NCBI GenBank assembly: GCA_002733665.1
Contig: NVWM01000008.1
Coordinates: forward strand, 1-43,562
DNA length: 43,562 bases
Direction of reading: 5' to 3'
Origin: Lutibacter sp.
GTDB taxonomy: Bacteria > Bacteroidota > Bacteroidia > Flavobacteriales > Flavobacteriaceae
A model generated the notes under the pieces. It was not told the origin of the DNA. It saw nothing but the letters and a program-made list of their open reading frames with translations, and did not search any database. Of the stretch, positions 22,925 to 43,562 are shown one piece after another. The position numbers and the translations under genes are program-made. Numbering within the stretch: position 1 is the first letter of the stretch; every line of letters starts with the position of its first letter.

Positions 22925-23190
22925 ATTAAGTTTTCATATAGATAATATACCTACTTTTTTACAGGTATTTGAAAATTCGAAAGAAAAAATACGAAATTCA
23001 AATGGTTGTCGTTTATTAGAATTATACAATGACAAAAATGATAAAGGAATATTTTTCACATATAGTCATTGGGACTCAGAAGACGATTTAAATAATTATA
23101 GACATTCTGATTATTTTAAAGAAGTGTGGAGTAACACAAAACCATTGTTCAATAAAAAACCTGAAGCTTGGAGTGTTGACAGATTACACA

Positions 23191-23204
<14 letters not shown>
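22905..23204 (+). CDS. ABM-domain monooxygenase-like protein
   Basis: A 99-residue protein of the antibiotic biosynthesis monooxygenase (quinol monooxygenase-like) fold: [65 protein letters not shown] 22905 lies inside the previous gene (20-bp overlap). The last residues (SSKQ) and the stop codon are supplied by the first units of the GCAGTAA tandem repeat. The original 3' end may therefore have been replaced or trimmed by repeat expansion. Confidence 0.85.
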
Positions 23205-23326
<122 letters not shown>

Positions 23327-23365
23327 AAAATAAAAAAAATAGCTATAAAACAAGAAAACTTTGAA

Positions 23366-33058: not shown

Positions 33059-34177
33059 ATGAAATTTATAGTATCAAGTTCACAACTTTTAAAGCAATTA
33101 CAAGTTCTTGGAGGTGTAATCAACAACAATAACACCTTACCAATTTTAGATAACTTTTTGTTTGAATTAGACACAAACCAATTGAAGATTACTGCGTCAG
33201 ATTTAGAGACAACCATGAGTTCTACGATTGAAGTTGAATCGAATTCTCAAGGTTCTATTGCCGTTTCTGCACGTTTACTGTTAGATACTTTAAAAACATT
33301 TCCTAATCAACCATTGACTTTTAAGACGGAAGACAATAGCACTATCGAAATTAGTTCTAGTCAAGGAAAATATGATATGGCTTATTTTAATGGCGAAGAA
33401 TTTCCTAAAACAGTAGCATTAGCCTCTCCAAGCAAAACAGTATTGAATGGAGACATTTTGGCAACTGCTATTTCAAAAACTATTTTTGCTGCAGGAAACG
33501 ATGATTTACGCCCTGTAATGAGTGGTGTTTTCTTCCAATTCAGTCCAGAAAATTTAACTTTTGTTGCAACTGATGCGCACAAGTTGGTAAAATATACACG
33601 TACAGATGTTGCTGCTGATGAAGTTGCTGAGTTCATTATGCCAAAGAAACCATTGAACTTATTAAAAAGTATTTTAGGAAGTACAGGAACAGATGTTACT
33701 ATTGAATATAACGATTCTAATGCTAAGTTTACGTTTGATAACATTGTCTTAGAATGTAGATTAATTGACGGAAAATATCCTAATTACGATGCAGTAATTC
33801 CTAAGGAAAATCCAAATAAATTAACTGTAGATAGAGCATCATTTTTAAATTCTGCTCGAAGAGTTTCAATATTCTCAAGTAAAACAACACATCAGATTCG
33901 CTTGAAAATGGCAGGAACAGAATTAAACATTTCTGCAGAAGATATTGATTATTCAAACAAAGCAGACGAACGCTTAAATTGTGAATATCAAGGAGATGAC
34001 ATGCAAATTGGCTTTAACTCTCGTTTCTTAACAGAAATGTTAAGCAACCTTGATTCTAACGAAATAACGATTGAAATGTCATTACCAAACAGAGCAGGAA
34101 TCCTAACACCAATTGATGGTGTAGAAGAAGGTGAAGAAATCACAATGTTGGTAATGCCTGTAATGTTGAATTCGTAA
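33059..34177 (+). CDS. dnaN: DNA polymerase III subunit beta (sliding clamp)
   Basis: A 372-residue clamp with the expected three-domain length. The MKFIVSSSQLLKQLQVLGGVI opening, NNTLPILDNFLFEL, TDAHKLVKY and the C-terminal MLVMPVM hydrophobic end are DnaN hallmarks. It is a single-gene unit followed by a terminator. It forms the last recognisable core gene before the cassette array, whose first boundary lies 133 bp after its stop. Confidence 0.98.
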   Translation: MKFIVSSSQLLKQLQVLGGVINNNNTLPILDNFLFELDTNQLKITASDLETTMSSTIEVESNSQGSIAVSARLLLDTLKTFPNQPLTFKTEDNSTIEISSSQGKYDMAYFNGEEFPKTVALASPSKTVLNGDILATAISKTIFAAGNDDLRPVMSGVFFQFSPENLTFVATDAHKLVKYTRTDVAADEVAEFIMPKKPLNLLKSILGSTGTDVTIEYNDSNAKFTFDNIVLECRLIDGKYPNYDAVIPKENPNKLTVDRASFLNSARRVSIFSSKTTHQIRLKMAGTELNISAEDIDYSNKADERLNCEYQGDDMQIGFNSRFLTEMLSNLDSNEITIEMSLPNRAGILTPIDGVEEGEEITMLVMPVMLNS

Positions 34178-34228: not shown

Positions 34229-34241
34229 TTTAAACATAAAC

Positions 34242-34310
34242 AGGAACAAAAGTTCCTTTTATCACGAAATATAAACCCATAAAAGAGTACTTTAGTACTT
34301 TTATAACCAG
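34242..34310. other. left boundary of the cassette array (attI-like or truncated site)
   Basis: Two small inverted repeats precede the first cassette box: AGGAAC/GTTCCT around 34242-34257, and a near-perfect ATAAAAG..CTTTTAT palindrome at 34279-34304. The latter ends 6 bp before GTTGTGCG (34310). It does not have the arms of the six later sites, so it is either a primary insertion site or the remains of one. No integrase gene is adjacent in this window. Confidence 0.4.
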
Positions 34311-34572
34311 TTGTGCGTAAGCTGACCAAACCAACGAAAATTGAGTTGAAATTTAAGTTCTTGAATATTTATGAACGACAAACCAATCGGAATTTTAATT
34401 GGAACGTGAAAAATATAACGCTGGAATTATTTACTCTTGCGGAATATAACGCACGAATTAAAATCGGAACTATTTTTTAGATTTTAAAGTAAAAATTAAT
34501 AAATTCACTAAAAATAAAAAGACGTTAGATTTTTTGCTCATTAAACAAAAAGTTACGTAAAAAGTAAATTTA

Positions 34573-35100
34573 ATGATTGAGACAAACATTTACACAACTC
34601 GGAAACTTGAAAAAGTAACTAATGAGTTCATTTCAGATGACATAAATAAAGAAAATGATTTTTTAGGAAATTGGACTGCTACTCTATTTTATGTAAGCAA
34701 TAAAAAATGTTGGTTAATTATCAATAAGTTGACAAAATACCTTCTGATTTTACCGAATGTAAAAAAAACTGATTTAAAAAATATATCGACTATTTTTAAA
34801 GAGACTCTGTATTCACAACTGACTTATGACGGAGTTATAACAGATTATAAATTAGTTGAGAAAATAATAGGAGAAATCAAATTGCGCGAAACAAATAATG
34901 ACCGAAGTACAAATGGTTCTCTAAATAACTGTTTATTTCAAATGGAGGATTGGAAATATGATTATGGAACTTTTGAAAATATGCCGTTTAGAGATTTAAA
35001 CAATAGACTAAATAGCTCACCGAATAAAATGTTGAACTGGAAATATCCGAAAGAGAAAATGGACGAAATGATAAAAGCCTACGCACAACACCGTGTATAA
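34573..35100 (+). CDS. DUF6933-like protein (cassette 1)
   Basis: A 175-residue soluble protein. The order LGNWTATLFYVSNKKCWLIINKLTKYLLILPNVKK, TIFKETL and a later NNDRSTNGSLNNCLFQMED resembles the DUF6933 family (function unknown); this is from memory and is moderate. The final residues YAQHRV and the stop codon are encoded by the left box and first arm of the cassette site, so the cassette end defines the protein end. The 262 bp between the cassette start and the ATG hold no other gene that I can see. Confidence 0.7.
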   Translation: MIETNIYTTRKLEKVTNEFISDDINKENDFLGNWTATLFYVSNKKCWLIINKLTKYLLILPNVKKTDLKNISTIFKETLYSQLTYDGVITDYKLVEKIIGEIKLRETNNDRSTNGSLNNCLFQMEDWKYDYGTFENMPFRDLNNRLNSSPNKMLNWKYPKEKMDEMIKAYAQHRV

Positions 35101-35217
35101 TTAATTGCTTTGGTAAGTGCTTATTTGGAAAATTCCTTCGGAATTTTCTCTGGTTCGTATTTGTTTACTAAATTAGTTGCTTTACCACGCAACTAACCAT
35201 ACACAAACACGTTGGGC
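35080..35217. repeat. attC-like site A
   Basis: Left box TACGCACAAC (35080-35089); right box GTTGGGC (35211-35217), with the crossover expected between 35211 and 35212. The inner arms GTGTATAATTAATTGC and GCAACTAACCATACAC pair with A/G-type differences that are G-T wobbles on the bottom strand. The unpaired spacers are 3 and 6 nt. The loop end contains GAAAATTCC/GGAATTTTC. Length 138 bp. Confidence 0.8.
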
Positions 35218-35241
35218 ACTATTAAAAAAAACGAACACTTA

Positions 35242-36831
35242 ATGAAAAAAATATTATTATTCATCATCTCTTTTACTCTATTGAGTTCGTGTAGCCAGCA
35301 AAAAATTCTAACTTTAATTACTAAAACACCAAAAATTGAATATCAAAAACCTACTAATTTCGATAAACTTAATGATTACCAAAAAGATGCTGTTTATTTA
35401 ACAGAACTCATTAAACAAACTTACCCAAGATTAGGTACAAAAATTACAACTAAAAACTACCTAATTGAAAGTAATAAACTCATAAAGAAACTATCTAAAA
35501 TTGAAAATGATTTAGATTTTGAAATCGAAATTCAAAAGTTTATTGCACTACTTAAAGACGGTCATAGTTATATGGGAATTAACTATGTAGATCAAGACAA
35601 AAGAAAATTCAATGTATATCTATATAAAGAAAAAAAAGATTGGGTTATTTGGAATATTGACAAATCAAAAGATAGTTTATTTATAGGCTCAAAAATAGTT
35701 TCGATTAATGGAAAAAAACCAAATGAAATTAAAAATTTGATTAACAAATTTGAATGCGGTGAAAATGAATTTTGGAAATTAAAAAATTTTGGTTGGAAAA
35801 TCACTTACCCAAAATATTTAGAAGCCATTGGTATTATTAAAAAAGGTGAAAATTTAAAACTTTCAATTGCAAAAAATAATAAAACAGAAATAATTGAAAT
35901 TGAAAAAAAAGAAAAAGGAACATTTTATAATATCAGAATAAGAGAAAGAAAATTTCCGTTTACAAAAAAACAAAACAATGGGTTTTATTATAAAGTAAAT
36001 TCAAAACAGAATTTTGCATATCTACAAATGAACACATCTCTTGATTATGTGTCAATTAAAAGTGAAATAAGTAATTATACTAATTTTATAACAAAACCAA
36101 TTGCCTTAGCATATCTGAAAAAAGATACTAAAGATGCTCGAAATTTTGGATTAACATTACAAGCCCTATTTAATGAAATAAAAAACAACAATATTGATAA
36201 CTTAATAATTGACCTACGTTATAACACAGGTGGAGATGAACGCCCAGGAAAACAGTTAATATGGTATTTGACTGATAATAAAAATATAAATGGCTTTACT
36301 GATTATTTGAATATTTCTGATTATTTTAAAACTCAAATAAAAACCGATTATAAAAAGTACAATAAATTGTATATGAAAAAATACAATAAAACTATTCCTA
36401 ATGGAGAGATTAATATTACAAAGGAGTTTCTTAACAAACCTTATTTCTATGATATTACCAAAGAAAATAGTCCGTTTTTATTAGACAATACCATTCCGAA
36501 ATTTAAAGGAAAAGTTTATGTATTAATTGGAACAAATACTTTTAGTGCAGGTCAAGTATTAGCAACAACAATTGCAGACAATAATTTGGCAACTTTAGTG
36601 GGGAAACCAACAGGAAACAAACCTACAAGTCAAACAGGTGCTTCAGGTTTTAAATTGCCTAATACAAAAAAGATAATTATGATTTCATATACATTTATGG
36701 AAAGACCTAACAAGGAAAAGAATAGTGAAAACGCCCTATATCCTAATGTTGAAATTTACCACACTTACGAACAAATTATTAATGGAGATGATAAGCAGTT
36801 TGAATATATTATAAACGAAATAAAAAAGTAA
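35242..36831 (+). CDS. S41 family peptidase lipoprotein (cassette 2)
   Basis: A 529-residue lipoprotein with lipobox LLSSC (Cys17). The C-terminal S41 (tail-specific protease-like) domain has LIIDLRYNTGGDERPG and the nucleophile Ser435 in GTNTFSAGQV, then GKPTGNKPTSQTGAS. The frame can be extended to a TTG at 35212, but that codon is the cassette junction itself; ATG 35242 restores a normal lipoprotein signal. The stop lies 1 bp before the left box of site B. The substrate is unknown. Confidence 0.88.
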   Translation: MKKILLFIISFTLLSSCSQQKILTLITKTPKIEYQKPTNFDKLNDYQKDAVYLTELIKQTYPRLGTKITTKNYLIESNKLIKKLSKIENDLDFEIEIQKFIALLKDGHSYMGINYVDQDKRKFNVYLYKEKKDWVIWNIDKSKDSLFIGSKIVSINGKKPNEIKNLINKFECGENEFWKLKNFGWKITYPKYLEAIGIIKKGENLKLSIAKNNKTEIIEIEKKEKGTFYNIRIRERKFPFTKKQNNGFYYKVNSKQNFAYLQMNTSLDYVSIKSEISNYTNFITKPIALAYLKKDTKDARNFGLTLQALFNEIKNNNIDNLIIDLRYNTGGDERPGKQLIWYLTDNKNINGFTDYLNISDYFKTQIKTDYKKYNKLYMKKYNKTIPNGEINITKEFLNKPYFYDITKENSPFLLDNTIPKFKGKVYVLIGTNTFSAGQVLATTIADNNLATLVGKPTGNKPTSQTGASGFKLPNTKKIIMISYTFMERPNKEKNSENALYPNVEIYHTYEQIINGDDKQFEYIINEIKK

Positions 36832-36832
36832 C

Positions 36833-36966
36833 AGTGCCCAACAATCTGTATAGTTAATGGCTACTAATTGCTAACTCCAAAGTTCAATACTTTAAAATAA
36901 GTTTGGTTATTTAACCGAAAGTTTAGTAATTTTAACACGCCACTAACCATACAGGCAACGTTGGCA
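36833..36966. repeat. attC-like site B
   Basis: Left box AGTGCCCAAC (36833-36842) is the exact reverse complement of the cassette start GTTGGGCACT (35211-35220). Right box GTTGGCA begins at 36960. The arms CTGTATAGTTAATGGC and GCCACTAACCATACAG are separated from the boxes by 3 and 5 nt. An internal direct repeat is seen around 36868-36896 and 36907-36935. Length 134 bp. Confidence 0.85.
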
Positions 36967-36986
36967 ACCATTAGAAAAAACCAAAT

Positions 36987-38684
36987 ATGATAATAACAAA
37001 AATATCAGCAAAAAATTATAGAAGTTTAGAGGATATTAATATAGAATTCAACCCTTACTACAATGCTTTATCAGGTAAAAATAATTCTGGAAAATCTAAT
37101 TTAATTAAAGCAATACTATCTTTTCTTACATATAATTACAGAATATTTGGACATTATCAATCTGGACCAATTGACCACAATTCAGATTATCCTTCTTGGA
37201 AAAAAAATGAAAAGAAAAAAGAGCCTATTGTAATCGAAATTACATTAGAATTGGATAAAGATAATGATGCTGGATTATATAAATTTATCCGAGAATTGAT
37301 TTTCAAGGAAGATGAAACAGTAGATGTTGAAAAAGAATTATTATTAATAAAAGCAACTAATTCACCCGATAAAAAAAGCACGGAAATTGAAATCTATTTT
37401 GGAAAACACAAAATTGAAGATGAATATAAGCGTGATGAACTATTGAATAGGATAAGAGGTTCTGAAAGTGTTCTGTTTCATAATTCGACAGAAAACGAAC
37501 CATTTTTTTTATCTCAAAAAAGGAGAGATTCTATTTCCTCATATTTAACTAGTGAAGACCAAGAAAAAATAACAAAGAAAAAAGAGACTTTAGAAAGGGC
37601 GGTTAAGAGTTCTCTAAAAAAACATCAAACAGAGTTTAGTTCCCTTTTAGGTCGTTTAACTGAAAAATATGATGTTTCCCTAGGGATTCCAAGTTTAAAT
37701 ATTGATAGAGAAAGTATTGAGATATCTCTAAAAGAAAGAGGGATTGAAGTATCTCTTGAAGATTGGGGATCAGGTACAAAAAACAGAACATTGATTCTGC
37801 TTAATTTAATGAATGCGAAACGGATTCAAGAATCGGCAAACCTCAATAAAAGATTAACCCCAATAATCATTATAGAAGAACCTGAAAGTTTCCTTCACCC
37901 TTCTGCTCAAGCGGAATTTGGAAGAATCCTACAAGATATTGCTACAGAACTTAAAATTCAAATTATTGTAGCAACACATAGCCCTTATCTTTTAAGTCAT
38001 AAAGTACCGAAAGCAAATCTTCTTCTTGAAAGAGATTTAGGCTCAAAATTTAAAGGCTCAAAATTAATAGATACAGATGGAGAAAAATGGTACGAGCCAT
38101 TTGCACTCTCGTTAGGTATTAGTGGAGACGATTTCGGACCATTAAAATCGACTATTTTTAGTGGAAAAGATGATATTATTTTGGTTGAAGGCACATCAGA
38201 CAAAGATTATTTTGAGTTATTAAAAAAAGATTATCACGGAGAGAATAAACTTAATTTTAATGGTGAAATATTCCCATATGGAGGAGCAGGAAATATTAAA
38301 AACAACATTTTACTGCGGTTTATTAAAGAACGATTCAAGAGGTTTATCGTTACAGTTGACCTTGACAAGTATAATGACACAAAAAACACATTTAAATCAT
38401 TAGGTCTAACAGAAAATAAAGAATTTATAATTATTGGGAAAAATGAAACAGGAAAAAAATGTATTGAAGGATTAGTTCCAAGTGAATTACTGTCTAAAGT
38501 TTATGGGGAGAATGTTGATTTAGTACAACAATCTATGGAAAACTCACCTGATGGTAAAGATGCTCGTTCTAAAATAAAAACAAAAGTTTTAGATGCTTTT
38601 AAAGAAGAAGAAAAAAACAAAACTGTTTCAATTTTTAAAGAGTTCTATCCATTGGTGAAAATAATAAATAGAGTATTCAAATAG
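36987..38684 (+). CDS. OLD-family ATPase/TOPRIM nuclease (cassette 3)
   Basis: A 565-residue protein. The N-terminal ABC/SMC-like ATPase has Walker A GKNNSGKS (30-37), a signature region GSGTKNR, Walker B PIIIIEEPESFLHP and the switch histidine in VATHSPYLL. The C-terminal TOPRIM has IILVEGTSDKDYF (catalytic Glu), PYGGAG and VTVDLDKYND. This is the OLD / GajA type of domain layout. OLD-type nucleases act in phage defence, alone or with partners such as GajB. No partner gene is in the cassette, so a stand-alone defence role is inferred. The start lies 26 bp after the cassette border. Confidence 0.92.
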   Translation: MIITKISAKNYRSLEDINIEFNPYYNALSGKNNSGKSNLIKAILSFLTYNYRIFGHYQSGPIDHNSDYPSWKKNEKKKEPIVIEITLELDKDNDAGLYKFIRELIFKEDETVDVEKELLLIKATNSPDKKSTEIEIYFGKHKIEDEYKRDELLNRIRGSESVLFHNSTENEPFFLSQKRRDSISSYLTSEDQEKITKKKETLERAVKSSLKKHQTEFSSLLGRLTEKYDVSLGIPSLNIDRESIEISLKERGIEVSLEDWGSGTKNRTLILLNLMNAKRIQESANLNKRLTPIIIIEEPESFLHPSAQAEFGRILQDIATELKIQIIVATHSPYLLSHKVPKANLLLERDLGSKFKGSKLIDTDGEKWYEPFALSLGISGDDFGPLKSTIFSGKDDIILVEGTSDKDYFELLKKDYHGENKLNFNGEIFPYGGAGNIKNNILLRFIKERFKRFIVTVDLDKYNDTKNTFKSLGLTENKEFIIIGKNETGKKCIEGLVPSELLSKVYGENVDLVQQSMENSPDGKDARSKIKTKVLDAFKEEEKNKTVSIFKEFYPLVKIINRVFK

Positions 38685-38690
38685 CAACGT

Positions 38691-38886
38691 TTGCCAACAA
38701 TGGCTATAGTTAATACGGGTTTTGGTGCTTACCCCAAAGTTTAGAGCTTTTAAACTAAGTCCGCCAAATCTTTTGATTTGGCTTTAGAACAAAAAAGATA
38801 AAACAAAATGAAAAGTTTTGGCTAAGTGCTTAATCGAAAGTTTAGTTACTTTTAATCCCGTACTAACCATAGCCGAGACGTTACCC
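38691..38886. repeat. attC-like site C
   Basis: Left box TTGCCAAC ends at 38698 and complements the cassette start GTTGGCAACC in 9 of 10 positions. Right box GTTACCC begins at 38880. The 18-bp arms are at 38702-38719 and 38857-38874, with spacers of 3 and 5 nt. An apical hairpin GCCAAATC/GATTTGGC is visible. The sequence is nearly identical to site F over its whole length. Length about 196 bp. Confidence 0.85.
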
Positions 38887-38965
38887 AACATTCCAAAACC
38901 AACAAAAATTTCGCATAATAATAATAATAATAATACCTTAGCATTTTAATTAAAAATAGAAACAT

Positions 38966-39442
38966 ATGAAACACAAAAAGACAATGACAAGCATTGCGTT
39001 TCTTCTCTTAGGACTGGGAGGGCTGCACGCACAAGAAAGCCCAATTGCCACAGGCGGTGAGGCAACAGGAACAGGCGGAACAGCCAGTTACTCGGTAGGA
39101 CAAGTAGTTTACACTACAGCTACAGGAACAAACGGAAGCGTAGCACAAGGCGTACAACAACCCTATGAAATTTCTACAACGTTAGGCATAAATGAAACAT
39201 CTATTAACTTAGAAATGAGTGTTTATCCAAATCCAACTACCGATTATTTAACCTTAAAAGTAGAAAAAACAGGAGGATTAACTTTTCAGTTGTATGACCT
39301 ACAAGGAAAAGTAATAACAAACAAAAAAGTAAACAGTGCCACTACAACAGTAGCAATGGAAAATTTACCAACCGCTACTTACTTTTTAAACGTAGTAAAA
39401 AACAACCAAATAATAAAAACATTTAAAATCATAAAGAATTAA
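38966..39442 (+). CDS. small T9SS-sorted surface protein (cassette 4)
   Basis: A 158-residue secreted protein. Signal peptide about 1-22 (ending HAQ). A Gly/Thr/Ala-rich part (TGGEATGTGGTASYSVGQVVYTTATG) is followed by a type A type IX secretion sorting domain: SVYPNPTTDYLTLKVEK, LYDLQGKVI, YFLNVVKNNQIIKTFKIIKN. It is thus predicted to be exported and attached to the cell surface. Its leader holds six TAA repeats (38916-38933). It lies 39 bp before the DGR-target-like gene. Base composition is clearly richer in G and C than in the neighbouring cassettes. Confidence 0.88.
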   Translation: MKHKKTMTSIAFLLLGLGGLHAQESPIATGGEATGTGGTASYSVGQVVYTTATGTNGSVAQGVQQPYEISTTLGINETSINLEMSVYPNPTTDYLTLKVEKTGGLTFQLYDLQGKVITNKKVNSATTTVAMENLPTATYFLNVVKNNQIIKTFKIIKN

Positions 39443-39481
39443 TAAAAGCCACAATGTGGCAAATCATAAAAAATTAGAACA

Positions 39482-40684
39482 ATGAAAAAAATATACACAA
39501 TAATAGCAGGGTTAATGCTAACAGCAAGCGTATTTGCACAAGCACCCGAAAAAATGAGTTACCAAGCGGTAATACGAGATGCGAGTAACAATTTAACAAC
39601 TACCCAAGCCGTAGGAATGCAAATAAGCATTTTGCAAACTACAGCAACAGGTACGGCAGTTTATGTAGAAACACAAACCCCAACCACTAATGCTAACGGA
39701 TTAGTAACTTTAGAAATAGGAACAGGAACAGTAGTAAGTGGAGGTTTTGCCACTATTGATTGGGCAAACGACACCTATTTTATAAAAACAGAAACCGACC
39801 CAACAGGCGGAACAGCTTACACGATAACAGGAACAACACAATTAATGAGTGTGCCTTATGCTTTACACGCTAAAACTGCAGATAGCATTACAGGAACAGT
39901 AAACTACACAGAAACTGACCCAGTTTTTGGAGCATCTGTAGCCAATGGAATAACGGCACTTGATACTGCTAATTGGAATAACCACACCGTTGATACTGAT
40001 ACACAGCTTAATGAAGCAGCGGTAGATGGATTTGTTGCCAATAATGGTTATTTAACCACAGAGGTAGATGGTTCTGTTACAAATGAGTTACAAAACCTCA
40101 CGGTATCACCAATAGGAGACACCCTTACTATAACTGGAGGCAACTTCGTATTAGTACCAGGTATTAGTTTATTAAATTTCCCACCAGCACCAGTAATAGG
40201 CGACTTTATAAATGGAGGAGTCGTATTTTGGGTTGATGGCAATGGCGGAGGCTTAGTGGTTGATGTAAATGATTTAAGTACAAGTGCTGAATGGGGATGC
40301 GATGGAACGGTAATAACAGGCGCAGATGGAACGGCAATAGGTACAGGTGCGCAAAACACCATTGATATAGAAGCAGGTTGTACAACAACAGGGATTGCAG
40401 CCGATTTATGTGCTAACCTGACACTAAATGGGTATAGCGATTGGTTCCTACCTTCTATAAATGAATTGACAGAGTTATACACCAATAGAGCTACAGTTAA
40501 CACTGCGGCATTAGCAAATAGTGGTACAGCCTTATCAGAAAGCATCAGTGTTCCTTACGGAGCATATTGGAGTTCTACTGAGTACAGTAGTTATAGCGCT
40601 TGGGGCTACTATTTCAATTACGGTTACTCAAACGTCAACGATAAGTACGATACCTATAGAGTGAGAGCCGTTAGAGCTTTTTAA
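39482..40684 (+). CDS. DUF1566-type C-lectin-fold surface protein, probable DGR target (cassette 4)
   Basis: A 400-residue secreted protein. Signal peptide about 1-19 (ending VFAQ). The N-terminal half (APEKMSYQAVIRD, QISIL, PYALHAKTADSI) is a common Bacteroidota surface module. The C-terminal half (about 235-400) is a DUF1566/Lcl domain of the C-type-lectin fold: INGGVVFWVDGNGGGLVV, NGYSDWFLPSINELTELY, YWSSTEYSS, VRAVRAF. The last 40 residues are crowded with Tyr, Ser, Asn and Asp codons at surface-loop positions, as in DGR variable regions. A fragment of avd lies just downstream, strengthening that reading. No reverse transcriptase or template repeat is in the window. Confidence 0.85.
   Translation: MKKIYTIIAGLMLTASVFAQAPEKMSYQAVIRDASNNLTTTQAVGMQISILQTTATGTAVYVETQTPTTNANGLVTLEIGTGTVVSGGFATIDWANDTYFIKTETDPTGGTAYTITGTTQLMSVPYALHAKTADSITGTVNYTETDPVFGASVANGITALDTANWNNHTVDTDTQLNEAAVDGFVANNGYLTTEVDGSVTNELQNLTVSPIGDTLTITGGNFVLVPGISLLNFPPAPVIGDFINGGVVFWVDGNGGGLVVDVNDLSTSAEWGCDGTVITGADGTAIGTGAQNTIDIEAGCTTTGIAADLCANLTLNGYSDWFLPSINELTELYTNRATVNTAALANSGTALSESISVPYGAYWSSTEYSSYSAWGYYFNYGYSNVNDKYDTYRVRAVRAF
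40560..40684 (+). other. candidate DGR variable region (VR)
   Basis: The 3' end of the target gene from YWSSTEYSS to the stop has codons TAC, AGT, AGT, TAT, AGC, TAC, TAT, AAT, TAC, AAC, GTC, AAC, GAT, TAC and GAT at alternating positions. These could all derive from AAC/AAT template codons by adenine-specific change. Invariant WSST and VRAVRAF frames flank them. This is inference; the template repeat needed to prove it is not in the window. Confidence 0.5.
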
Positions 40685-40710
40685 CTATTTATCCCTTTAC
40701 CTATTTTATT

Positions 40711-40723
40711 ACTGCGTAGCAGT
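40711..40723 (+). other. small hairpin downstream of the candidate VR
   Basis: ACTGC-GTA-GCAGT, a 5-bp stem with a 3-nt loop located 26 bp after the target stop codon. DGR target sites often carry a GC-rich hairpin or cruciform just after the variable region. A second, longer stem TTTTTTGAAATGG/CCATTTCAAAAAA lies at 40733-40767 and may be a terminator. Confidence 0.45.
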
Positions 40724-40780
40724 CGATTTTTATTTTTTGAAATGGCCATTTTTCCCATTTCAAAAAAATCTTTACTAATT

Positions 40781-40948
40781 ATGGCATTATCACATACTTT
40801 ACCCATTTATATAGATACCTACAAATTAATACTGCTCATTTTTGAGCGTACCTCAAATTTTGGTAGAGAGTATAAATATACGCTTGGTCAAGATATGAAA
40901 CGAGATGGTATCAATTTGGTACGGAGTATTTATAGAGCCAATAGATGA
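40781..40948 (+). pseudogene. avd: Avd-like (four-helix bundle) fragment, C-terminally truncated
   Basis: A frame encoding LPIYIDTYKLILLIFERTSNFGREYKYTLGQDMKRDGINLVRSIYRANR, then a stop. The PIY-TY-LLL-IF-T-NF-REYKYTLGQ pattern and the IYRAN end of the second helix match the N-terminal half of DGR accessory variability determinant (Avd) / four-helix-bundle proteins. These are normally about 110-125 residues; here only about 55 remain. The frame can start earlier at 40742, but that codon is inside a hairpin, so ATG 40781 is used. It is followed directly by a terminator and the cassette end. Confidence 0.7.
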
Positions 40949-40955
40949 CGTATTA

Positions 40956-40989
40956 AAAAACGGCAAGATAATTAAATCTTGCCGTTTTT
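40956..40989 (+). terminator. rho-independent terminator at the end of cassette 4
   Basis: AAAAACGGCAAGAT pairs perfectly with ATCTTGCCGTTTTT across a 6-nt loop. It ends transcription of the T9SS protein / DGR target / avd run, 21 bp before the left box of site D. Confidence 0.92.
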
Positions 40990-41010
40990 AATATCAAAAT
41001 AAAAGCAAAC

Positions 41011-41208
41011 GTTGGGTAACAATGGCTAAAAAACATAGGGATTTTGGAGGTAATTTGGAAATTCAGAGTTTCAATTAAAAACCGCCAAACCAAAATTTTG
41101 ATAATGAAAAAAGAAAATTAATAATAAAAATATTTGGCTTGGCTAAGTGGTAAACTGAAAGGGCAGAGTTTCAAACTCCCCTACGATTTCTTAGCCTAAA
41201 CGTTGTGC
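41011..41208. repeat. attC-like site D
   Basis: Left box GTTGGGTAAC (41011-41020) is the exact reverse complement of the cassette 4 start GTTACCCAAC (38880-38889), ten of ten. Right box GTTGTGC begins at 41202. The arms share GGCTAA and TAGGG blocks with spacers of 3 and 5 nt. Length 198 bp. This pairing bridges a 2.3-kb cassette. Confidence 0.85.
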
Positions 41209-41232
41209 GTCATTAAAAATCAGAACTAAAAA

Positions 41233-42033
41233 TTGAAAATTCTACTGAAAATAATACTCAAAATAATTCTTTTTGTTTCTCTGAGTGTAATAACTCAAAT
41301 TGGCGGAATAGTTTATTTATTAAGCCTAATAATTTCCCGAAAATGGAATAAAAAACTGAATTTTAAAACACTGATTACCTTTATTGGACTTTATCTATTA
41401 TCGACATTTCTAATAGTTCCTTTAGTTGCCCCAAATTTTGGACGAGAGAAAGTAAAACATTCAGAAAAAATAAAACCAACGAATTTTATGACCGTTTTAT
41501 TGAACAGAAATTATGTTCGACCAAAACTGAACGAATTATTGAACCAAACGGAAAAGGAATTAAGAGGAACAGATATTGAAATTCATTATTTAGACGTAAA
41601 TTTCCCTTTTATAAATAAGTTCCCACTTCTTCCACATTTAAGCCATAATGACGGAAAGAAAATAGACATTAGTTTGATTTACGAAACAAACAGCGGAAAA
41701 ATAACAGATAAACAAAAATCTGTAAGTGGCTACGGAGTATTTGAAAATCCTAAATCGAATGAATATAACCAAATTGAAAAGTGTTTACAAAATGGATATT
41801 TCCAATATGATTATCCAAAATATGTGACTTTTGGGAAAATTAATAAAGAATTAGTTTTCTCTGAAAAAGGAACAAAAAGACTGATAAAAAGTATCTTGAA
41901 AAATCGAAATTTAGGAAAACTATTTATCGAACCACATTTGAAAAGCAGAATGAATTTAAAAAATAACAGAATAAGGTATCACGGTTGTAGAGCAGTAAGA
42001 CACGATGACCATATTCACGTACAACTGAAATAA
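41233..42033 (+). CDS. membrane-anchored LAS-type metallopeptidase (cassette 5)
   Basis: A 266-residue protein. Two N-terminal hydrophobic helices (about 8-33 and 45-66) are followed by a domain with HxxGxxxD (H138 to D145, in LSHNDGKKID) and a C-terminal HDDHIHVQL (H260, H262). These are the zinc-site motifs of LAS enzymes such as MepA murein endopeptidase and M15 peptidases. A role in cutting peptidoglycan cross-links is therefore plausible. No ATG precedes the signal helix; TTG 41233 is the likely start, 30 bp into the cassette. The stop lies 10 bp before the left box of site E. Confidence 0.75.
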   Translation: MKILLKIILKIILFVSLSVITQIGGIVYLLSLIISRKWNKKLNFKTLITFIGLYLLSTFLIVPLVAPNFGREKVKHSEKIKPTNFMTVLLNRNYVRPKLNELLNQTEKELRGTDIEIHYLDVNFPFINKFPLLPHLSHNDGKKIDISLIYETNSGKITDKQKSVSGYGVFENPKSNEYNQIEKCLQNGYFQYDYPKYVTFGKINKELVFSEKGTKRLIKSILKNRNLGKLFIEPHLKSRMNLKNNRIRYHGCRAVRHDDHIHVQLK

Positions 42034-42043
42034 AAAAATAACG

Positions 42044-42240
42044 AACGCACAACACCGTATAAAATTAATGCTTAAGGTCAGTGTTTAACCAAAGTTTTGG
42101 CATATTTATAAAGTCCGCAAAATTTTTCAAATTTTGCATTCAGCGGAAAAATAAGATAAAATTTAAAAAACTCTGCTAAGTGCTAAATCCAAAAATTATT
42201 GTATTTTTAACTCGCACTAATCTTATACAACACGTTGTGT
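42044..42240. repeat. attC-like site E
   Basis: Left box AACGCACAAC (42044-42053) complements the cassette 5 start GTTGTGCGTC (41202-41211) in 9 of 10 positions. Right box GTTGTGT begins at 42234. The arms GTATAAAATTAATGC and GCACTAATCTTATAC differ only by changes that pair as G-T on the bottom strand. Spacers are 3 and 5 nt. Length 197 bp. Confidence 0.85.
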
Positions 42241-42271
42241 ACAATACCAAAAAACCGAGAGAACATAGTAA

Positions 42272-43033
42272 ATGTCAAAGATTTATCACTATACAAAATT
42301 AAGTACAGCAATTGAATTCATTTTGCCATCTATGAATTTAAGGACAAATTTTTTGAACAAAATGAATGGTCCAAAAGAAAATCAAAAATGGTCTTTTGGT
42401 GGAATAAATGTCCCATACGAAACCCTTTATGCTGAATTAGATTATAATGTAGATTCCGACAAAGCACATTTTGACAGTATGTTCAAATTTGGAGAGGAAA
42501 TTAAGTCAAAAATTCAAGCCACCTGTTTTGTTTATTCAGACAAATACAAAGGATTTGAAAATGAAATGATGTGGGCACAATATTCGGAAAATCATAAAGG
42601 AATTTGCCTCGAATTAGACACAGAATTATTTATAAAAGAAAATAGTCAATTAGATATTTTTAAATTCCAAAACATCAATTACGAACCAAAAAAAGATGAA
42701 TGGGTTTATTGGAATAGAAATATGTCAAAAGACGAGAATATTGAGCAATTCATTAAACGAAATTTTGAAAACCTATTTCTTTCTAAATCTCATTATTGGG
42801 AAAAAGAATTTGAAAAACGACTATTAATACTTGCTAAAAACCATTGTTATTTAAACATAAAAGAATCTCTTACTGGAATTTATTATGGATTATCAACGGA
42901 CTTCAATTATGATCTTGCAATTCAGCAATTTATTGACCCATTAAGAACGAAAACATATCGTGTGTACTTTGAAGATAATAAACTGAAAAGAATGGAACGG
43001 AAAAGTACTGTACACAACAATGGCTATAATTAA
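42272..43033 (+). CDS. DUF2971 family protein (cassette 6)
   Basis: A 253-residue soluble protein. The opening IYHYTKLSTAIEFILPSMNLRTNFLNKMNGP, the central MMWAQYSENHKGICLELD and the later SHYWEKEFEKRLLIL follow the DUF2971 pattern, a family frequent in mobile and defence-rich regions; its function is unknown. The C-terminal STVHNNGYN and the stop codon are encoded by site F. The start is 37 bp after the cassette border. Confidence 0.88.
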   Translation: MSKIYHYTKLSTAIEFILPSMNLRTNFLNKMNGPKENQKWSFGGINVPYETLYAELDYNVDSDKAHFDSMFKFGEEIKSKIQATCFVYSDKYKGFENEMMWAQYSENHKGICLELDTELFIKENSQLDIFKFQNINYEPKKDEWVYWNRNMSKDENIEQFIKRNFENLFLSKSHYWEKEFEKRLLILAKNHCYLNIKESLTGIYYGLSTDFNYDLAIQQFIDPLRTKTYRVYFEDNKLKRMERKSTVHNNGYN

Positions 43034-43206
43034 TACGGGTTTTGGTGCTTAACCCAAAGTTTAGTGTATTTTTATAGAGTCCGCCAAATCTTTTGATTTG
43101 GCTTTAAAACAAAAAAGATAAAACAAAATAAAAAGTTTTGGCTAAGTGCTTAATCGAAAGTTTAGTTACTTTTAATCCCGTGCTAACCATAGCCTAACCG
43201 TTGTAG
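43009..43206. repeat. attC-like site F
   Basis: Left box TGTACACAAC (43009-43018) is the exact reverse complement of the cassette 6 start GTTGTGTACA (42234-42243). Right box GTTGTAG begins at 43200. Between the boxes it is almost the same sequence as site C, including the GCCAAATC/GATTTGGC hairpin and the two GTGCTTAA direct repeats (from 43045 and 43146). Length 198 bp. Confidence 0.87.
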
Positions 43207-43228
43207 TGCATTTGAGAAAAAACCCGAA

Positions 43229-43562
43229 ATGAAGAAGAAAACTATTCTTTCAAAGAAAATTATTAGAGATATAGATAAGGCAATTATTGATTCTGATTCC
43301 AAATTAGATATTGATTTCTTGAATCAGGAAAAGTATTATAATTATGAAATTGAAGAATGGTATGGAGAGGAATTTGGAATAAAAGGAGAGTTAAGAAAAA
43401 AAATTATTGAGACTCTATTAAAAACTTATTTTGAATGGAAAAAAGAACTTGATAAATTAAATAAGGAATATTATTTAGCAATTTGGCTTTATAATCCGAG
43501 AATGCTGAAATCAGAAATTGTTTGTGCAATAGACGAAAAAATAACTTATTACGAAAATGAAA
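43229..43562 (+). CDS. unknown protein, cut by the window edge (cassette 7)
   Basis: An open frame from ATG 43229 with at least 111 residues, beginning MKKKTILSKKIIRDIDKAII and running off the right edge. It is highly charged and probably helical (KGELRKKIIETLLKTYFEWKKELDKL). It has no signal peptide. I do not recognise the family. It starts 29 bp inside the seventh cassette, the same short spacing as in the other cassettes, which supports it being a real gene. Confidence 0.7.
   Translation, partial: MKKKTILSKKIIRDIDKAIIDSDSKLDIDFLNQEKYYNYEIEEWYGEEFGIKGELRKKIIETLLKTYFEWKKELDKLNKEYYLAIWLYNPRMLKSEIVCAIDEKITYYENE

Follow-up and report, generated by a model that had tools for sequence, protein, structure and literature searches.

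Chromosomal integrons (IntI/attI/attC systems such as the Vibrio superintegrons) are arrays of small codirected units, each ending in an imperfect palindrome whose outer boxes, R'' and R', carry the pairing peculiar to that unit. The palindrome runs from R box through unpaired spacer and L stem to a variable end, its fold favours the bottom strand, its AAC/GTT core is broken at G|TT, and the attI site lies by the gene of the tyrosine recombinase IntI, which usually points away from the array. The integron core consensus is given as RYYYAAC/GTTRRRY (PMC12901181), and two papers describe canonical attC sites as marked by extrahelical bases (PMC11641012, PMC12901181). For Bacteroidetes proper, the accessible part of one survey reports a single complete integron, in Salinibacter ruber, where an earlier survey had only In0 (PMC9024848). 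Here, we describe a cassette array in the first 43,562 bases (hereafter the window) of contig C30 (105,645 bases) in a 2.7 Mb draft genome of Lutibacter sp. From sequence analysis we consider it very probable that this array is one of two belonging to an integron-type gene-capture system, widespread in Bacteroidota, whose recombinase is not an IntI.

The system shares the architecture set out above, from small codirected units with their own R''/R' pairing to a bottom-strand-favouring fold, a break at G|TT and an attI-like site by a tyrosine recombinase gene. Unlike in chromosomal integrons, the recombinase lacks the IntI insert and carries an additional N-terminal domain of ~90 amino acids, its gene is codirected with the array, the core is GTT followed by any sequence instead of GTTRRRY, the R stem reaches up to 14 bp, and the stem usually has G.T pairs, extrahelical bases being the mark of canonical attC sites. 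Up to 34.2 kb the window looks like ordinary chromosome, dnaN being its last gene; from 34,311 there is a codirected series of six complete units and the first part of a seventh. The GTT starts of the complete units lie at 34310, 35211, 36960, 38880, 41202 and 42234, and their own inverse boxes at 35080, 36833, 38689, 41011, 42044 and 43009. The initial annotation had begun the array at 34311; that position holds as the T following the G|TT cut, but the GTT itself begins at 34310. The features are as follows:

34238..34312, + strand: attI-like site, 75 bp, 96% identical to C36:183323-183397, ending AACCA|GTT in both
34311..35211, + strand: cassette 1, from G|TT to G|TT, own boxes GTTGTGCGTA/TACGCACAAC
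34573-35100, + strand: cassette 1 gene, DUF6933 (Pfam 7.5e-36; PADLOC PDC-S63 1.3e-15)
35080..35220, + strand: attC-like site 1, from R'' to R'
35212..36960, + strand: cassette 2, with an S41 peptidase gene (ATG at 35242, end at 36831; Pfam Peptidase_S41 2.9e-18)
36833..36969, + strand: attC-like site 2
36961..38880, + strand: cassette 3, gene at 36987-38684 for a defence-type AAA ATPase with an OLD-like TOPRIM domain (AAA_15 1.7e-32 in Pfam; AriA 2e-32 and Old 5.8e-28 in PADLOC)
38689..38889, + strand: attC-like site 3
38881..41202, + strand: cassette 4, two genes, for a sorting-domain protein (38966-39442) and an Lcl_C protein (39482-40684)
41011..41211, + strand: attC-like site 4
41203..42234, + strand: cassette 5, gene at 41233-42033 with a weak M74 peptidase match (E 0.0026, below the Pfam cut-off)
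42044..42243, + strand: attC-like site 5
42235..43200, + strand: cassette 6, DUF2971 gene at 42272-43033 (1.8e-6; PADLOC PDC-S31 9.3e-14)
43009..43209, + strand: attC-like site 6
43201..43562, + strand: cassette 7, start only, its own site lying beyond the window at C30:43851-43993, own boxes matching at 10/10 bases
33059..34177, + strand: open reading frame that we take to be dnaN (DNA polymerase III beta clamp), a housekeeping gene directly 5' of the array

The box at the 5' end of each complete window unit matched its own 3' site at 10/10 bases in four units and 9/10 in two. All six pairs of GTT plus variable bases with a reverse complement in the unit's own site, on which the initial annotation had built its proposal of an integron-like Bacteroidota cassette system, were recovered in place; the pairing extends further than first described, up to 13-14 bp, with the usual A.C (top strand) at position 11. 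The proposal itself is supported by this own pairing, by bottom-strand folding, by a recombinase with an attI-like site and by cassette sharing, as detailed below; the recombinase and its missing IntI insert, the duplicated attI, the fixed G.T pairs and the solo loci are additions to it. The six sites span 137-201 bp from R'' to R' inclusive and can be aligned at both ends, the middle differing. Each opens with an R'' ending in AAC and closes with GTT; between these lie two stem arms, separated by a variable stretch and set off from R'' and from GTT by a spacer on either side. The arms pair with compensatory changes, and stem mismatches are mostly top-strand A.C, equivalent to bottom-strand G.T, with two A.C columns invariant across all six. 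Folded singly, the bottom strands of 5/6 sites gave z-scores of -1.7 to -3.0; by our own reading of alignment and fold, site 4 seems to carry one bulged base.

A covariance model of the bottom strands of these six sites (R1, trained on this genome alone), a check that the initial annotation had suggested, uncovered a second array in this genome as well as sites in related genomes. At an expectation value (E) <= 1, R1 returned 45 matches in this genome, of which 16 lay in one orientation on contig C30 (35,080-62,117) and 11 on contig C36 (184,119-197,610), the remainder being two antisense twins of stronger matches and others that were scattered. The window array thus extends beyond the window, with matches as far as 58479, followed by a weak match (E 0.038) at 61980-62117; the weakest array matches of the model had E 0.04 and 0.14, and two sites of the C36 array missed in the first pass were found by a later search. 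Rfam returned four matches at E <= 1, none at gathering score, and no Rfam family was assigned. In a many-genome set, R1 gave 319 matches in 43 loci, of which 300 were listed and 292 typed and used, the typed set leaving out antisense twins and short partial matches. Tandem codirected units with an imperfect palindromic site were the rule, with one orientation in 38/38 loci with typed matches, and R'' ended in AAC in 287/292 typed sites and R' began with GTT in 290/292.

Pairing between the ends of the same unit extends well beyond the window. Across the 27 units of the two arrays in this genome, the seven variable bases matched their own site at 168/189 positions, compared with a maximum of 111 in 20,000 permutations. 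Pairing failed in three of the 27 units: two span a site missed by the first R1 pass and found later, and the third, running from 58470 to a weak match, contains an IS3-type element, which does not account for the failure. In the many-genome set, at least 6 of 7 variable bases matched the unit's own site in 212/242 units, compared with 76/2404 non-own pairs from the same loci. Such pairing of a cassette's 5' end with its own inverse core is a mark by which integron systems are recognised, and those 212 units bear it.

The stems were also asymmetric between strands. Of the 285 sites in which both AAC and GTT were in position, 279 had at least 9/14 Watson-Crick pairs in the stem, and these held 605 cells with bottom-strand G.T against 9 with top-strand G.T, which indicates that the bottom strand folds better; the G.T peaks fell at step 7 (208/279 sites) and step 12 (196/279). 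Being drawn from matches to R1, these stem counts lean towards the model; R-stem step 11, which the model does not cover, was A.C in 190/212 units and Watson-Crick in one. Folding with DNA parameters favoured the bottom strand in 254/284 whole sites and 276/284 arm-only constructs, and by these calculations the bottom strand is the better-folding one. For 150 aligned matches, 97.1% of cells were paired, as compared with 76.0% after shuffling, and 568 cells showed a change on both sides where the shuffled mean was 167, in an alignment fitted to the model; pairs with change on both sides (13) were not more numerous than in shuffles (12.6).

The initial annotation had also advised looking for a tyrosine recombinase elsewhere in the chromosome, and a gene for one, of 397 amino acids, lies on C36 directly 5' of the second array; two other recombinases of Xer size are also encoded in the genome. 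The closest named relatives of the 397-residue recombinase are from Lutibacter, at 62%. The 75 bp comprising the 3' end of this gene and the bases up to the GTT (C36:183323-183397) recur at 34238-34312 with the 96% identity listed above, the match stops at the GTT, and different cassettes then follow in the two arrays; a third copy of the stretch, 71% identical, is found on C1. We read the duplicated 75 bp as a putative attI, a copy of which now heads the window array. A tyrosine recombinase gene with an adjacent attI, the latter judged by position and boundary, is thus present at C36. To survey this arrangement, 41 recombinase-downstream stretches (40 from 38 other genomes, plus the C36 stretch) were picked from recombinase matches, long contigs first. 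Typed sites occurred in 36/41, all oriented as the recombinase, and in 24/36 a GTT within 200 bp of the recombinase stop fitted the first detected site at 8/9 bases or better, a count that did not pick up the first cassette on C36, which was seen by direct inspection. Among 80 named recombinase loci, R1 gave 74 matches in 30; the strand was the expected one for 73, and the last was the antisense twin of one of these. Of the 74, 68 entered the attI analysis. A cassette promoter (Pc) at attI had few candidates: the motif TANNTTTG, presumably the Bacteroidetes -7 element, stood at -22 or -21 in only 7/41 attI-like sequences, compared with 1.0 expected by base shuffling; the same search of the 41 sequences did not find it in this genome's own attI-like site. 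As a separate observation, 12/41 attI-like sequences (L098, L100, L104, L105, L107-L109, L111, L112, L114, L115 and L196) hold a dyad with 9-14-bp arms, mostly of 11, that ends 3-7 bases before the GTT.

R233, K258, H322, R325, H348 and Y357, which we take to be the catalytic residues, were invariant in 34/34 aligned recombinases, the alignment leaving out seven of the 41: five rows with an internal stop as extracted, L089 (open start) and L116 (short). A second alignment, of named-genome recombinases, held 54 of 80 rows, with one short row left out. Spacing between the KGxKDR and HxLRH motifs was 57-63 residues in 87/88 rows, compared with 100 in 25/25 measurable canonical IntI (of 27), and the 88th row, at 307 residues, was taken as a misread of the search pattern. 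The short spacing implies that the IntI-specific insert is absent. In NCBIfam the best match was XerA NF040815 (211.7 bits, cut-off 220), ahead of the integron integrase TIGR02249 (192.7 bits, curated cut-off 265), and the best PDB match was 5hxy, IntI4 being the third-best PDB sequence. Whole-protein Foldseek comparison returned tyrosine recombinases and their kin among the best 50 matches listed. In a 40-row tree, 15/15 IntI formed one clade (100/100) and 23 recombinases fell across a branch supported at 92/87 (90% of bootstraps), in an analysis that included only two Xer rows and in which the tool flags long branches. The enzyme resembles XerA and archaeal Xer in its best profile and structure matches, and is unlike them in its HARP-like N-terminal domain and its linked attI-like sites and arrays.

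The N-terminal extension of ~90 amino acids is predicted to form an alpha/beta domain (residues 1-85 folded alone; predicted local distance difference test, pLDDT, 86). Pfam HARP matched 7/42 members (best 8.9e-6) and DUF5710 11/42 (best 2.7e-4); a profile of the 42 members ranked the HARP structure of SMARCAL1 first, weakly (E 0.2), and Foldseek of the N-terminal model ranked an XPB domain first, also weakly (E 0.09). HARP of SMARCAL1 binds DNA forks and anneals strands. As a lead from modelling, a HARP-like domain would suit an enzyme that acts on folded single strands.

We sampled the family with 199 genomes, nearly one per genus and one per species. R1 sites (E <= 1e-4) occurred in 164/199 and a recombinase match (E <= 1e-40) in 125/199; for the sites, 12 candidates were scored per genome, making counts per genome lower bounds. 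Genomes with sites among the named recombinase loci include Lutibacter, Polaribacter vadi, Algibacter onchidii, Flavobacterium psychrophilum, Algoriphagus ornithinivorans, Arundinibacter roseus, Roseivirga echinicomitans and a metagenome-assembled genome named Chitinophaga pinensis. In a phylum sample of 296 genomes, TIGR02249 matched at E <= 1e-60 in 85 (above its cut-off in 84), of which one belonged to the same class and none to the same family; judging by GC content and size, these genomes are probably lineages of Chlorobia, Balneolia and Rhodothermia type. A genome outside the class with a canonical IntI also has an R1 site of 181.7 bits (G342:C22:53145-53343), which hints, by sequence, at cassette traffic between two recombinase lineages.

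Cassettes were shared across genera. Between genomes of different genera, 36 cassette matches reached 75% or more across 300 bp, of which 15 were IS3-type elements and were removed by hand; a first, larger estimate of sharing that counted these elements at array sites was rejected. Among the 21 non-IS3 matches listed, 16 begin at cassette base 1 and 8 end within 9 bases of the cassette end. Within this genome, a cassette with a cupin-like gene, named by inspection, comes first in the C36 array and recurs on C34 at 87% identity. The two copies match from the AACCA that precedes both, but have different attC sites. PADLOC models were matched at E <= 1e-4 by 6/10 selected cassette proteins, and in the cassette at C30:55052-58342 a C5 cytosine methylase and a MutH-type restriction enzyme seem to make up a complete restriction-modification pair. 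IS3-type elements, named by inspection of translations, immediately follow attC-like sites in several genera, and do so repeatedly within one genome (C30:58480-59811, which is L041:4481-5811, L097, L098, L103 and L134, with a second type at L093, L106, L114 and L122), as if they targeted attC-like sites.

Cassettes of the same kind appear singly elsewhere in the genome:

L256-L281, dispersed solo loci, genome G000, contigs C4, C5, C10, C15, C17, C20, C24, C25, C28, C32, C34 and C36

At 13 lone sites in this genome the right half is not GTT but GAT (11 sites), AAT (one) or GCC (one). The right end GATACATAAAATWANNCAATAC is present in 14 copies (<=2 mismatches), all after an attC-like arm, ten of which were located by R1 and four by eye. 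The left end (TTGACTTTGTCA plus the bases that follow as far as TTATCTT) resembles a promoter with a hairpin and has 12 copies (<=3 mismatches), 11 of them paired with a codirected right end 0.7-3.2 kb away. In these 11 pairs the box after the left end matched the inverse box at 9-10/10 bases in nine, at 8 in one and at 7 in one, against a mean of 6.6-7.3 and a maximum of 9 in a control with other loci. Closely similar left ends precede cassette-like starts in six other genera (G044, G017, G163, G175, G049 and G019), where the start box matched the downstream site at 7, 8, 8 and 9 of 9 bases in four places and at 1/9 in a fifth. The left-end pattern was found in 17/199 genomes (this one included), as against 7 for a reversed control, and at least seven matched places seem unrelated. 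The lone sites recall attG, the secondary sites of integron cassettes that Loot et al. reportedly described in 2024 with a GWT consensus, in having a non-GTT right half; unlike attG, most solo sites have both flanks conserved and dispersed, with a promoter-like left end. By their sequence, the solo loci look like a dedicated single-cassette platform, as opposed to random targets.

What lies 3' of dnaN differs among relatives. The dnaN protein is 77-93% identical in 9/9 relatives searched, and a site (E <= 0.1) follows the gene in 1/8 of those with downstream DNA (G163), the ninth (G169) being excluded with 269 bp to its contig end and G047 offering 2.0 kb only; the same-genus genome G113 has no site in 8.8 kb 3' of dnaN. 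With 7/8 relatives free of a site there, we rejected the idea that a dnaN-adjacent array is an old family trait. The G163 locus (L250) is a solo cassette with a promoter-like left end ~0.2 kb 3' of dnaN, the same neighbourhood as that of the window array. Elsewhere in the window, at 23111-23353, an antisense frame with many LLPTAYC repeats marks a short tandem repeat between two genes.

Three other explanations can be set against an integron-type system with a non-IntI recombinase. An ordinary integron whose divergent IntI scores low with current profiles would contain the same parts, namely attC-like sites, own pairing, an attI by a tyrosine recombinase and a G|TT boundary, and both the TIGR02249 match and the third place of IntI4 among PDB matches speak for it; that match lies under its cut-off, the insert is absent by spacing, the tree separates 15 IntI from 23 recombinases (long branches flagged) and few right boxes fit GTTRRRY, making this explanation unlikely. 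Xer/pdif-type modules, mobilised at dif-like sites by the housekeeping XerC/XerD, might be suspected from the solo loci, which end in GATACATAAAATWANNCAATAC, a sequence whose reverse, in our judgement, resembles a XerD arm, and from the two Xer-size recombinase genes. The sites of the arrays, however, are long and folded, unlike the short dif sites, the attI copy comes from the third recombinase gene and not from a Xer locus, and 14/14 right ends abut an attC-like arm; we consider such modules highly improbable. Fixed gene-end hairpins (terminators or messenger RNA-stabilising repeats) spread by gene conversion would account for foldable sites with a long conserved stem at gene ends, yet the A.C mismatches weaken the transcript-strand fold and the G.T pairs aid the other strand, a terminator has no need of cassette-specific pairing with its unit's start at a distance of 0.4-3.3 kb, and a recombinase gene with an attI-like site heads arrays, so that hairpins of this kind are more improbable still.

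Several results weigh against our interpretation. No recombinase gene is adjacent to the window array, which in this resembles a CALIN (an attC cluster lacking an integron integrase, a term of IntegronFinder); unlike a CALIN, it has its own attI-like copy and a candidate recombinase elsewhere in the genome, and since it holds this copy the C36 recombinase could serve it in trans. In the family, 35/199 genomes lack an R1 site at E <= 1e-4 and 74/199 a recombinase match at 1e-40; 5/41 recombinase stretches and 50/80 named loci, with short or ample downstream DNA, have no R1 site at E <= 0.01, and as R1 was trained on one genome, misses and non-members look alike in such loci. Own pairing fell below 6 of 7 bases in 30/242 units, and the non-IS3 sharing comes from six cassette families, one of which gives 16/21 rows. 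R1 sites also occur in 80/296 phylum genomes, some with a canonical IntI, so that the presence of sites is by itself no proof of which enzyme acts on them. Against membership of the integrons proper, the IntI-specific additional domain is missing, the gap appearing in alignments to IntI as well as in the spacing; the TIGR02249 score is under the curated cut-off for IntI; and the core consensus is found as RYYYAAC in 22/285 R'' and GTTRRRY in 11/285 R', with only AAC and GTT conserved, which bears out the earlier claim that most right boxes fall outside GTTRRRY. The system looks integron-like in its workings, yet lacks two marks of an integron, the IntI insert and GTTRRRY.

Under an integron-type mechanism with a non-IntI recombinase, a cassette would consist of one or two genes and a 3' site, and its circle would bring the two ends together. 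The bottom strand would fold into an R stem that is peculiar to the cassette and at most 14 bp long, an unpaired spacer (~3 and 5-6 nucleotides) and a long inner stem, where bottom-strand G.T pairs at steps 7 and 12 may mark the strand. The XerA/IntI-like recombinase of C36, presumed to act on these sites and on a single-stranded substrate, would cleave at G|TT and link the folded strand to the attI-like site 3' of its own gene; replication would then resolve the insert, new cassettes would enter at the head and the array would be read from the recombinase side. The HARP-like N-terminal domain may help to bind or anneal the folded DNA. We advance more tentatively, as a possibility somewhat less likely than not, that this is a second integron lineage in Bacteroidota, derived from Xer-like recombinases apart from IntI, with a HARP-like fork-binding domain, fixed G.T pairs as strand marks in place of extrahelical bases, and both long arrays and dispersed promoter-bearing solo loci.

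We found no paper describing this cassette system in the openly accessible literature, a search that left subscription journals and bioRxiv outside its scope and is accordingly weak evidence. If our interpretation is true, most genera of one family would carry a cassette-capture system overlooked by IntI-based searches. The system would provide a natural test of what an integron requires, as the IntI insert and extrahelical bases might prove indispensable or might be one solution out of two, and would open a pool of cassette genes.

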